Below the pieces are notes generated by a model. That model did no database searches, was not told the DNA's origin, and was given only the letters and a program-made list of their open reading frames with translations. A DNA stretch of 64,000 bases, taken from assembly GCA_001516055.1 (NCBI GenBank), contig LOEZ01000020.1:1-64000 (forward strand). Reading direction: 5' to 3'. Source of the DNA: Gracilibacter sp. BRH_c7a (GTDB taxonomy: Bacteria > Bacillota > Desulfitobacteriia > Desulfitobacteriales > Syntrophobotulaceae). Shown piece after piece: positions 28,421 through 34,312 of the stretch. The translations under genes and the position numbers were made by a program. Position 1 is the first letter of the stretch. Each line of letters opens with the position of its first letter.

Positions 28421-28873
28421 ATGAACGACAATGAGAATAAAAAGACAATTGTATTCCCAAAAGGGATTCCTGGATTTGAAGATCATACAACCTTTATCTT
28501 AGAAAAGGAAGAGGATAGTCCCATAGTTCATTTGGAATCTGCGAAAGACAAAGAAGTCGGATTTGTTCTATTTCCACCCCAATTATATTTTAAAAATTAT
28601 CTTTCCAAGATTGAATTTGGCTCTGAGGAAGTAGAAGCTCTGGAAATTACTGCTGAGGATACTGTGGAAATTTGGGCGATTATAACCTTATGCTTGAGTG
28701 ATATCAGTAAATCCACAGTTAATCTGAGAGCACCAATCGTTATAAACCCCCGAACCAACCAAGGTTTTCAGTTTATTTTAAATGACGAGAATTATTCTTC
28801 CAGACAACAACTCTTTGTTGATGGACAGCAAGAAGATAAAGACCGGAGCAATGAGGAAGGGGCTGTCGGCTAA
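28421..28873 (+). CDS. fliW: Flagellar assembly factor FliW
   Basis: A 150-residue cytoplasmic protein that binds CsrA allosterically and binds flagellin; free flagellin titrates it. The family opening [20 protein letters not shown] is present, and the centre [18 protein letters not shown] and [19 protein letters not shown] match well. Its stop overlaps the csrA start by one base (TAATG), so the two are made together. This pair is placed to control hag translation downstream. Confidence 0.95.
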
Positions 28874-29130
28874 TGTTAGTCTTATCTAGAAAAGTAAATG
28901 AAACAATCCTCATTGGTGATGATATTGAGATTGTAGTCGTCGCTGTAGCCGGTGACAATGTACGCTTAGGAATCAAGGCTCCTAAAGATGTTAAAATCTT
29001 GCGTAGTGAAGTATACGAAGATATCCAAAAACAAAATGTAGAAGCAGCCTCAGGTTCGCCTTTGCATAACAAAGATATTTCAGCCAAACTCCAGCAGATG
29101 CTTGGTGATAGATTGAATAACAAAGAATAA
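28873..29130 (+). CDS. csrA: Carbon storage/translational regulator CsrA
   Basis: An 85-residue RNA-binding dimer. [20 protein letters not shown] and the region [20 protein letters not shown] are the family core, with the RNA-contacting Leu4/Arg6 and Arg in ILRSEVY. It binds GGA motifs in hairpin loops and blocks ribosome access. The hag leader in this window has such sites. The C-terminal tail of about 25 residues, rich in polar residues, is longer than in enteric CsrA, as is common in Firmicutes where FliW binds it. Confidence 0.96.
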
Positions 29131-29145
29131 AACAGGGAGATTATA

Positions 29146-29505
29146 ATGAATGTTGAAAAAGATATCAAGCTAAGAATATTATTACTCGGAGAAAACATCT
29201 TAGAGGCCTTGGAACATATCTCTAAAATTATCTCCAACGGTGATGAAGAGCAAACACTTGATTTAATGACAGATGTTTTGGAGGGTTTTAAGAGTATAGA
29301 AGAGGCTACGATTGTAGTTGAAACTATCAATTCCGAGGAAATGATGAACTTGACTTCAAGGTTGCGCAGCTCTTTTAATCTTCTGGTCAAATCCTATGAA
29401 CAAAAAGATGAAGTTGCCGTAAATGAGGTATTAAATAACGATGTATTGCCTGATTACCGTAGTTGGCTAAATTACATTAAAAGTGAGAATGGAAGCTTTT
29501 CGTAA
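29146..29505 (+). CDS. Unknown helical protein between csrA and hag
   Basis: A 119-residue, acidic, helix-rich protein with no membrane segment or signal. The sequence has MNVEKDIKLRILLLGENIL at the start, a central VLEGFKSIEEATIVVET and the end LPDYRSWLNYIKSENG. I recognise no domain. AGGGAG precedes the ATG, and a terminator overlaps its stop codon. It lies 15 bp after csrA, so it is the last gene of the flgM operon. Its position suggests a small flagellin chaperone or a regulatory partner; this is inference. Confidence 0.7.
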   Translation: MNVEKDIKLRILLLGENILEALEHISKIISNGDEEQTLDLMTDVLEGFKSIEEATIVVETINSEEMMNLTSRLRSSFNLLVKSYEQKDEVAVNEVLNNDVLPDYRSWLNYIKSENGSFS

Positions 29506-29518
29506 GAAGAGCTTTTTT
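29493..29518 (+). terminator. Terminator of the flgM-csrA operon
   Basis: AAGCTTTTC (29493-29501) pairs with GAAGAGCTT (29506-29514) with one G-U pair and a 4-nt loop, then TTTTTT. It overlaps the stop codon of the 119-residue protein. Confidence 0.8.
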
Positions 29519-29662
29519 ATTTTGATATAGAAATACTATAATAGTAAATTACCGTATTAAATAAAATTATTATAAAAAAACTAAAAAGCACAAATCACCA
29601 AGATATTGGAAGATAGTTAGAGATAATAAGATATAATTTAATATAAATAAGAATTTAGAGGG

Positions 29663-29690
29663 TAAAGGATACAGATAATTCTAACGAAAG
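29663..29690 (+). promoter_or_regulatory. Candidate SigD-type promoter of hag
   Basis: TAAA (29663-29666) and AACGAAAG (29683-29690) are 16 bp apart, the same geometry as the fliK promoter. Only the CGA core and an A match the -10 consensus, so the call is tentative. The start would fall near 29697, giving a leader of about 88 nt. Confidence 0.4.
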
Positions 29691-29699
29691 ATTAATTAG

Positions 29700-29779
29700 T
29701 TGGAAGGTTTCCAACGCCGGCGGAAACCGGAAGACTAAAATAATCGCATGGATGCGATTAATAAAATTCATGGAGGGAT
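29700..29779 (+). promoter_or_regulatory. Flagellin leader with CsrA-type GGA hairpins
   Basis: Hairpin 29741-29760 has a perfect 8-bp stem TAATCGCA/TGCGATTA closing the loop TGGA, a textbook CsrA site. A smaller hairpin at 29717-29730 (CCGG/CCGG) shows GGA in its loop CGGAAA, and 29700-29714 (TTGGAA/TTCCAA) lies further upstream. The hag ribosome binding site itself, ATGGAGGGA, contains another GGA. Dual binding would let CsrA mask translation, relieved by FliW. Confidence 0.65.
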
Positions 29780-29784
29780 AATCA

Positions 29785-31269
29785 ATGATAGTTAACACCA
29801 ATATTGCGAGCATGAATGCTCAAAAAAGCCTTTTAGGCACCAACAATGCGATGCAGAAATCTCTAGAGAAATTATCTTCGGGTTCCCGCATCAACAAAGC
29901 AGCTGATGATGCAGCAGGACTGGCCATGTCCGAGAAAATGCGCGGTCAGATCAAAGGCTTGAATCAGGCTGTACGGAATGCTCAGAGTGCGATTTCTCTT
30001 ATCCAGACAGCTGAAGGTGCTTTGAATGAGACCCACAGCATCCTCCAGAGAATGAGAGAACTAGCTGTACAATCAGCATCTGACACCAACACTACGGATG
30101 ATCGTGCTAAGATTCAGGCTGAAATGGATCAGCTCGCCAAAGAAGTTACTCGTATTTCCAATACCACAGAGTTCAACACCCAAAATCTTCTAGCTGGAGG
30201 CTTAGATAACACCTTCCATATCGGTGCCAATGCAGGTCAGAATATGTCACTTTCTGTTGGAGCCATGGATGCTAAGTCTTTGAACGTAGCAGGAAATATG
30301 GTCACAACTTCGTTTGGAGCAGGAGAATTAGCACAAACCGGTATCACTGGAATAACTACCCAATCCGAAGGTTTGGATGGAAAATTCATCGCTGCGAAAA
30401 AGACAGTAGCTACCTATACCCCGGGTGCAGTATTTGCTGGAGCTGCTGCTGTTACTGATAATGCTAGTGCTTATACTGGTTCGGTAGATAAAACATTTAC
30501 GCTAAAAGTTGCAACTGTTGCGGCGAATGAAGTTACTCAGCTACAGTATTCTACTGATGGCGGAGCCACTTTTAAAGCTGCTACATGGACTGCAGCTGGT
30601 CAGTTTACTTTGGAAGATGGTGTAAAAATTGATATCGAAGCGGATGGTGCTCTTGCTGCAGACCAAACATCTACCTTTGCAGTAACCGCTGACAAAATCA
30701 CTTTTACCCTCGCTGGGGCAGACGATGGTTCATCTCCAATTGGAGATGAGGTTAATGTTTACAGAAATAATACTTCAGCTATAATCGGAGATCCTGCAAC
30801 TGATACAGAGGCAACTGTTAACTTTGACTTCGCTACCGTACTTGCTGCTGTCGGTGCTGCTTATGATGCAGCTGATTCATCTGAAATTAGCCAAACTACA
30901 CAAAGTTCAACTGCAGCAGTCACAGGAGCCAATGGAGCTGTCTCAACAGAAGCGGTCACTTATAGCGGTATCAAAGTTACCTCTCAAGCTAAAGCCAACC
31001 TCGCTATTACAACAATTGATAACGCGATTAATGCAGTTTCCGAAGAGCGATCCAATCTTGGTGCTATGCAGAACCGTCTGGAACACACCATCAACAACCT
31101 TCAAACGGCTTCTGAGAATATGACTTCTGCAGAATCCCGTATCCGCGATGTAGATATGGCTGCTGAAATGTCCCAGTTCACCAAGAGCCAAATCCTCAGC
31201 CAGGCAGGCGTAGCCATGCTGGCTCAGGCTAACCAGGTTCCACAAGCTGTTCTTAAGCTTCTGGGATAA
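29785..31269 (+). CDS. hag: Flagellin
   Basis: A 494-residue filament subunit. The conserved N-terminal domain (about 1-140) opens MIVNTNIASMNAQKSLLGTN and contains LSSGSRINKAADDAAGLAMS. The C-terminal domain (about 405-494) contains NAVSEERSNLGAMQNRLEHT and ends QANQVPQAVLKLLG. Between them lie about 260 variable residues rich in Ala, Thr and Asp, which form the outer surface and make it larger than the Bacillus protein. It is exported by the flagellar gate and folded at the tip. GGAGGG precedes the ATG. Transcribed alone, with a long controlled leader. Confidence 0.97.
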   Translation: MIVNTNIASMNAQKSLLGTNNAMQKSLEKLSSGSRINKAADDAAGLAMSEKMRGQIKGLNQAVRNAQSAISLIQTAEGALNETHSILQRMRELAVQSASDTNTTDDRAKIQAEMDQLAKEVTRISNTTEFNTQNLLAGGLDNTFHIGANAGQNMSLSVGAMDAKSLNVAGNMVTTSFGAGELAQTGITGITTQSEGLDGKFIAAKKTVATYTPGAVFAGAAAVTDNASAYTGSVDKTFTLKVATVAANEVTQLQYSTDGGATFKAATWTAAGQFTLEDGVKIDIEADGALAADQTSTFAVTADKITFTLAGADDGSSPIGDEVNVYRNNTSAIIGDPATDTEATVNFDFATVLAAVGAAYDAADSSEISQTTQSSTAAVTGANGAVSTEAVTYSGIKVTSQAKANLAITTIDNAINAVSEERSNLGAMQNRLEHTINNLQTASENMTSAESRIRDVDMAAEMSQFTKSQILSQAGVAMLAQANQVPQAVLKLLG

Positions 31270-33359: not shown

Positions 33360-33767
33360 ATGAGTAATATTTTACAAGGTCGAAATATAAATCCGCAAGC
33401 TGCCTATAAACAAACTGCTGTGGAGACAGCTTCTCCGGAAAAACTGTTGGTCATGCTTTATACGGGTGTGATAAAGTTTTTACGACAGGCAGAGATAGCT
33501 CTGAAAGAACACAACTACGTAGAGGCTCATAACAGCTTAACCAAGGTTCAGGATATAATTTCTGAACTCAATATAACCCTGGATATGGAACGTGGAGGAG
33601 AAATCGCCGTTAATCTACGAGAACTTTACACTTTCTATCATAATGAAGTGGTACAAGCAAACCTTAAAAAGGATGATACCAAGTTGATTCCTGTAATCGA
33701 ATTCTTTGAGACTTTCAGGGATATGTGGATTGAGACTGCTAAAATTGCGCGTATGGGGGCCAAATAA
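33360..33767 (+). CDS. fliS: Flagellin export chaperone FliS
   Basis: A 135-residue helical chaperone that wraps around the flagellin C-terminus. The signatures AAYKQTAVETASPEKLLVML and YTGVIKFLRQAEIALKEH are typical. In Gram-positive bacteria FliS also bridges to FliW-CsrA control. AGGGGTGT precedes the ATG. The last base of its stop is the first base of the next gene. Confidence 0.94.
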   Translation: MSNILQGRNINPQAAYKQTAVETASPEKLLVMLYTGVIKFLRQAEIALKEHNYVEAHNSLTKVQDIISELNITLDMERGGEIAVNLRELYTFYHNEVVQANLKKDDTKLIPVIEFFETFRDMWIETAKIARMGAK

Positions 33768-34312
33768 TGGTCGCCAAGCTAATTGCAGCTCTCATCGAGT
33801 CCTACCATCTAGATATAGTTGATTACAATCAACTCAAACTCAAGATGCAGGAATTTTTCATTTTGCTTGAACAAAATGAAAAAAACAAAAAAAGGGAAAA
33901 AAGTCCTATTCAAGATTATGCTTCTGAGTTAGCTGATAGATATGAACAAAGCTTGCGAGAGTTTTGCAGCTATAGGGAAAAGACTTTTGAAAAATTACAA
34001 AAAAGAGCATATGAAGAGAAAAAAGTTCAGAACCAAGCTTGTTACGCAATAGGAATAGATTCTTTTGAGATAGATTGTTTCAAGATGTATCTAAGTGAAA
34101 ATGTATATAACGAACTTATTTCTGTGACAGATTTATTGAGGGAAAAGATGGCCTATATACTGGTAATGGATAAAGATCTTATCCACAAACTCAGCCAAAA
34201 TCTTGAAGAGCTCAAATTAGATATTCATCGAATGGAAAGCGTTAAAAAAACTCGGAATGCCTATAGCAATAAGGTAAATTATGAGGCTATCTATATAGAT
34301 CGTTCTAAATAA
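33767..34312 (+). CDS. Putative FliT-like flagellar chaperone
   Basis: A 181-residue, charged, helical protein coupled to fliS by a one-base overlap (TAATG). The place directly after fliS is where fliT lies in many genomes, but the sequence is longer than usual FliT and diverged. It has two cysteine-containing stretches, SLREFCSYREKTF and QNQACYAIGIDSFEIDCFKM, unusual for such chaperones. I call it FliT-like only by position and helical content. Confidence 0.55.
   Translation: MVAKLIAALIESYHLDIVDYNQLKLKMQEFFILLEQNEKNKKREKSPIQDYASELADRYEQSLREFCSYREKTFEKLQKRAYEEKKVQNQACYAIGIDSFEIDCFKMYLSENVYNELISVTDLLREKMAYILVMDKDLIHKLSQNLEELKLDIHRMESVKKTRNAYSNKVNYEAIYIDRSK

Follow-up and report, generated by a model that had tools for sequence, protein, structure and literature searches.

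A candidate self-pairing hairpin at the 5' end of flagellin mRNA leaders in Bacillota, upstream of a CsrA-type operator

The leader of the flagellin gene hag of Gracilibacter sp. BRH_c7a is probably composed of two RNA modules, a 3' CsrA operator and a putative 5' kissing loop that could pair with the same loop on another copy of the message. The CsrA site is a known arrangement and nothing new; what truly sets this leader apart from the Bacillus subtilis scheme is its 5' hairpin with a palindromic loop, a self-complementary candidate RNA element that apparently has not been described previously and is widespread in Bacillota. It is quite possible, although proposed here only tentatively, that flagellin mRNAs of many Bacillota homodimerise via this palindromic 5' kissing loop, beside and independently of CsrA–FliW, and that dimer formation tunes the stability, location or translation of this abundant motility message in response to its own concentration.

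The window, that is, the whole stretch of 64,000 nucleotides analysed, comes from contig C20 of the draft genome (4.1 Mb) and harbors a flagellar cluster with flgM, flgN, flgK-like and flgL-like genes, a DUF6470 gene, fliW, csrA, a 119-aa ORF, hag, flaG, a fliD-like gene and fliS, where flgK, flgL and fliD are names that we presume to apply. The features mapped from fliW to hag lie on the plus strand. FliW (28421–28873, 150 aa) matches the Pfam FliW family (6.8e-34) and the FliW chain of PDB 5dmb, and csrA (28873–29130, 85 aa), whose ATG overlaps the fliW stop, is the single match found in the whole genome (Pfam CsrA, 3.1e-26; PDB 5dmb_D and 1t3o). Hag (29785–31269) encodes a flagellin of 494 aa with Pfam Flagellin_N and Flagellin_C domains. 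The original prediction had placed fliW and csrA immediately upstream of hag; both are indeed upstream, but csrA is not adjacent to hag, as the 119-aa ORF (29146–29505) and a terminator-like hairpin (29491–29516) intervene, the latter overlapping the 3' end of the ORF and parting it from the hag promoter. This ORF belongs to no known family (no Pfam match at 0.001, and in NCBIfam only a weak, irrelevant one at E 0.03), and in the relative G012 the csrA–hag gap of about 288 bp is too short for a counterpart. After fliS, an ORF of 181 aa (33767–34309) without a Pfam match possibly encodes a FliT-like chaperone, judging from its position alone. The genome also holds a second, orphan flagellin (L003, G000:C85:1722-5135), a 580-aa open frame adjoined by what we take to be a LytTR-type response regulator gene; a CsrA hairpin of its own, with the same AUGGAU loop as that of hag, recurs before it, and the palindromic element is absent or changed there.

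Transcription of hag would be driven by a sigma-D/sigma-28-like promoter (29663–29689), spotted by eye from its likeness to the consensus, with a –35-like TAAAG (29663–29667) and a –10-like ACGAAA (29684–29689); close relatives carry TAAAG and ACGAAA or CCGATA with about the same spacing and place. From this promoter the transcript is predicted to start near 29696 and would carry both RNA modules. The weak point that the original prediction had named, a transcript beginning 3' of 29752, is unlikely, since another conserved hairpin and the sigma-D-like promoter itself are located upstream.

The 3' module would be a two-GGA CsrA operator formed by a hairpin (29741–29760) and the Shine-Dalgarno sequence. 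In the hairpin, UAAUCGC (29741–29747) pairs with GCGAUUA (29754–29760) around the loop AUGGAU, and a possible extra pair, A29748–U29753, would give an 8-bp stem topped by the tetraloop UGGA. The GGA in this loop (29750–29752) lies 33 nt 5' of the hag ATG, and a second CsrA-type GGA (29772–29774) is found in the Shine-Dalgarno region CAUGGAGGG (29769–29777), which contains GGAGGG at 29772–29777. The original prediction of a perfect hairpin with TGGA in its loop at this distance, and of another GGA in the ribosome binding site, is thus borne out, but GGA occurs five times, not twice, in the predicted transcript (the others at 29702, 29722 and 29729). A stem of eight Watson–Crick pairs around a GGA loop is reached by 5 of 5000 dinucleotide shuffles of 29690–29784. 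Conservation of the stem in relatives, which had been suggested as a check, is seen when 14 close leaders are aligned: changes in the helix are compensated, with both sides altered at 5/7 pairs, and CATGGAGGG, where the second GGA overlaps the Shine-Dalgarno sequence, is found in 14/14. The two named helices of the leader together are paired in 77.0% of the cells of this alignment, against 32–50% when they are slid, and one shuffle control failed to favour the structure on two measures out of five, with values as high reached by 48/500 and 436/500 shuffles. Beyond these relatives, 102 of 145 flagellin leaders, which were not chosen for this hairpin, have a GGA-loop hairpin between –62 and –14, where shuffles give 6.8; they divide into 43/65 leaders of the order (2.9 expected) and 59/80 named Bacillota leaders (3.9 expected). 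The 145 were drawn from 148 extracted leaders by removing duplicates, a 65-nt leader (L098) having been excluded earlier. The hairpin-plus-Shine-Dalgarno pattern is present in 65 of 120 Bacillales genomes and the reversed pattern in none of the 120; since the 66 Bacillales leaders used below were selected by this pattern, they provide no evidence for the CsrA hairpin.

CsrA–FliW control of hag is well supported by these comparisons and by the co-occurrence of csrA and fliW with flagellin in this genome. CsrA of the window aligns without gaps, up to residue 62, to the CsrA of PDB 1t3o, presumably that of B. subtilis, with an asparagine at position 55, and it also matches the CsrA chain that is bound to FliW in 5dmb. 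In the model suggested by homologous systems, a CsrA dimer would hold both GGAs, that of the loop and that of the Shine-Dalgarno sequence, blocking the ribosome, and flagellin export would free FliW to remove CsrA from the leader. The B. subtilis hag leader shares with the window the fliW–csrA pair, the sigma-D-type promoter and the GGA hairpin together with a GGA-bearing Shine-Dalgarno sequence, and family matches, compensated stems and recurrence in Bacillota all sustain the proposed likeness. The further claim that the GGA hairpin is an addition with respect to B. subtilis does not hold, as B. subtilis-type leaders also have a GGA hairpin 5' of a GGA-bearing Shine-Dalgarno sequence, and two CsrA sites are described for B. 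subtilis hag (PMC7652899, cited in part). The 5' UTR of Campylobacter jejuni flaA, which is subject to CsrA and FliW, likewise has two GGA stem-loops, SL1 and SL2, one upstream and the other over the ribosome site; unlike the window, its leader measures 45 nt, and the cited part of that paper does not describe a palindromic third hairpin (PMC4894983).

The 5' module (29696–29738) was absent from the original prediction. In both the minimum free energy and the centroid structure, an outer stem pairs UUAGUU (29696–29701) with GACUAA (29733–29738), followed by a purine internal loop GGAA/GGAA (29702–29705, 29729–29732) and an inner hairpin (29706–29728), in which GGUUUCC (29706–29712) and GGAAACC (29722–29728) enclose the 9-nt loop AACGCCGGC. 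The outer stem is predicted from the fold of the window leader alone, and the inner hairpin probably sits inside this longer stem, whose 5' end would roughly coincide with the transcription start if the promoter is right. The inner stem is conserved: aligned in 14 relatives, it has both-side changes at 3/7 pairs and 78.5% of cells paired. Both hairpins of the leader are conserved, with compensated stem changes. An alternative fold of 29700–29734 into two small hairpins, drawn by eye, was rejected because the GGUUUCC/GGAAACC stem is kept in relatives and preferred by RNAfold. The two-hairpin leader (29696–29760) folds at –23.1 kcal/mol (z = –4.19), which none of 200 shuffles equalled. Within the apical loop, the six-base palindrome GCCGGC (29716–29721) is left unpaired in the predicted fold, as in a kissing loop, and is the proposed homodimer site. 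When two strands of the leader were folded together, the energy was –61.3 kcal/mol, compared with twice –23.1, and the structure was drawn as an extended duplex, because the folding program does not draw kissing loops. No Rfam covariance model matched 29400–29900 up to E 5, and none reached its gathering score at the leaders in the loci of 10 relatives. A model of the leader had its strong matches at flagellin starts, and nothing else in this genome matched it below E 0.1.

Hairpins with a self-complementary loop recur at this place in flagellin leaders across Bacillota. A GC-rich palindromic hexamer in a loop that 4 or more pairs close is found at the 5' position in 96 of 208 flagellin leaders where 6.1 are expected, and over half (112/208) fail this rule. 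The excess is seen in leaders of the order (29/65; 1.8 expected), in named Bacillota (37/80; 2.8) and in Bacillales (30/63; 1.5), the last comprising 66 leaders before duplicate removal, not selected for the palindrome. It could be argued that only the CsrA module matters and that the enrichment reflects common ancestry and GC-rich stems, as CGGCCG is dominant in Bacilli and many leaders are non-independent; this reading is very unlikely, since the excess persists when distinct loops are counted once and each is shuffled internally. In that analysis, stems at –125 to –48 were picked blind to their loops (208 of 211 leaders used, 175 passing the stem threshold), and 52 of 130 distinct loops turned out to hold a palindrome of 6 or more, where shuffling gave 11.6 ± 3.0, the largest of 200 shuffles reaching 20. 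Of the two control regions, the one upstream had 9 palindromic loops among 137 (9.0 expected) and the CsrA region had 2 among 48 (0.9 expected). Under the blind-stem rule the palindromic-loop leaders numbered 94, with at least 4 G/C in the core in 92 and a median position of –77. A pseudoknot within the leader was also considered and ruled out, as a downstream partner for the core (a second copy, at least 5 bases) exists in the own leader in only 1/94.

The sequence of the loop core changes and its self-complementarity persists, as expected of a kissing loop. Eight core palindromes were found, namely GCCGGC, CGGCCG, GTCGAC, CCCGGG, TGGCCA and GGCGCC, with AGGCCT and CTGCAG in one case each. 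GCCGGC is the core in the window's family, and CGGCCG that of most Bacilli and of genomes that we guess to be Desulfosporosinus-like. Loops were compared in an alignment of 110 of the 144 leaders kept for a recognisable –10 and GGA site. Between similar leaders, matched changes occur inside the core (CTGCAG in L228 and CGGCCG in L229; AGGCCT in L232 and CGGCCG in L233), and a broken core, CGTCCG, was found in one row, L251. On a flagellin tree, 6 palindrome-to-palindrome changes are counted among 53 palindrome-bearing leaves, versus 12.4 with shuffled labels, which means that palindrome types cluster by descent; this tree holds 137 of the 208, labels 84 of the 137 'none' under a strict rule, and contains neither GTCGAC nor several other cores. 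As the core in Bacilli is mostly CGGCCG, much of the Bacilli count is shared ancestry. The loop comparison and the tree indicate that several palindromes arose separately, which further argues against common ancestry and GC content as the whole explanation.

The same variation bears on two other readings. A dimeric transcription factor could use the palindrome as a DNA operator just 3' of the hag promoter, and the location of the six-base palindrome, at about +20 relative to a promoter under regulation, would suit it, as would the good conservation of CGGCCG in Bacilli; this is highly improbable in view of eight different GC-rich palindromes and of flanking stems kept by compensated change, which is RNA behaviour. 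Moreover, in 56 of the 88 distinct hairpins the centre of the palindrome does not coincide with the stem dyad, being displaced mostly toward the 3' side, which speaks for RNA loops over a DNA operator. The commonest loop layouts among the 88 are 1+6+1 (24) and 2+6+1 (15), the second being also the layout of the HIV-1 DIS (2 nt + 6 + 1 nt). Self-pairing energies of the eight cores range from –7.5 to –11.7 kcal/mol, comparable to those of two HIV-1 DIS cores (–7.9 and –10.9). Alternatively, the loop could be the site for a trans-acting protein or sRNA. One candidate is FliW, since binding of this protein to the hag leader of B. subtilis has been reported, for reasons yet unexplained (PMC6529632, cited in part). 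We give this reading very little credence: such a factor would be expected to preserve sequence and not self-complementarity, B. subtilis-group leaders have no palindrome, and FliW was not detected in two hairpin-bearing genomes. These are G042 and G047 (97 and 98% complete), flagellin-bearing genomes of the order without a CsrA or FliW match, in whose flagellin leaders a 10-pair hairpin carries CCCGGG in its loop and the GGA hairpin is absent by eye. The palindromic hairpin there persists apart from the CsrA module, in line with an independence from CsrA.

The distribution of the hairpin touches on its position at the transcript end. In G013, G017 and G023, the downstream members of flagellin tandems carry the CsrA hairpin without the palindromic one, which fits an element of the transcript 5' end. 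The B. subtilis group keeps the 5' hairpin itself, without a GC-rich palindromic loop in any of 17 leaders (an AT-rich one in 4/17), and the 5' palindromic hairpin is missing from most of the f4 leaders seen in the same class; both sets were kept outside the counts. Sitting where this abundant mRNA is predicted to begin, the hairpin could be a mere stabiliser against 5'-end decay, its palindrome being incidental, and leaders that carry the hairpin without a palindromic loop, or neither of them, would accord with that. We regard this as rather unlikely, because a stabiliser has no need of a self-complementary loop, yet palindromes survive sequence change.

Some leaders have further features. 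In G033 and G043, additional small csrA genes, three of them in tandem at G033:C6:115102-115924 and two at G043:C21:11804-12292, lie directly 5' of a flagellin with TGGCCA in its 5' hairpin loop. L102, L134 and L147 look like a separate leader type, longer, with a GGCGCC loop about –110 before flagellin and a common downstream GGAGAAAGGATTCTCC hairpin. Peribacillus muralis (L117:2325-2660) and Geobacillus jurassicus (L138:2851-3209) have group I introns (Rfam RF00028) 3' of the flagellin start.

The proposed model is then that the GC-rich, six-base self-complementary loop on its stem would pair with the twin hairpin of another flagellin mRNA, so that the abundant message would dimerise through its 5' ends. 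We infer this pairing, and any effect of the dimer, by analogy with known kissing loops. The HIV-1 DIS also presents a six-base GC-rich palindrome in an apical kissing loop, and so does the 3'-UTR of oskar mRNA, where it joins two copies of the mRNA (PMC7357161, cited in part). The former is an element of a viral genome with a proven dimer, whereas the window has a bacterial mRNA leader with a putative one; the latter is eukaryotic, sits in the 3' UTR, has a role in mRNA transport and has no known link to flagellin leaders. The likeliest outcomes of dimerisation would be shielding from 5'-end decay or message clustering; these effects, like cooperative CsrA binding, are conjecture. Polar placing of C. 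jejuni flaA mRNA depends on translation and CsrA–FliW and therefore offers no direct precedent (PMC4894983, cited in part).

Functional RNA oligomers are seldom observed in nature (PMC7357161, cited in part), and among the matches listed for open-licence papers, titles and abstract openings contained no self-pairing loop in a flagellin mRNA. Lack of the palindrome in the group of the model organism would explain why the element has gone unnoticed. A 5' loop that drifts yet stays palindromic would provide an evolutionary argument for mRNA–mRNA pairing as a regulatory device in bacteria.
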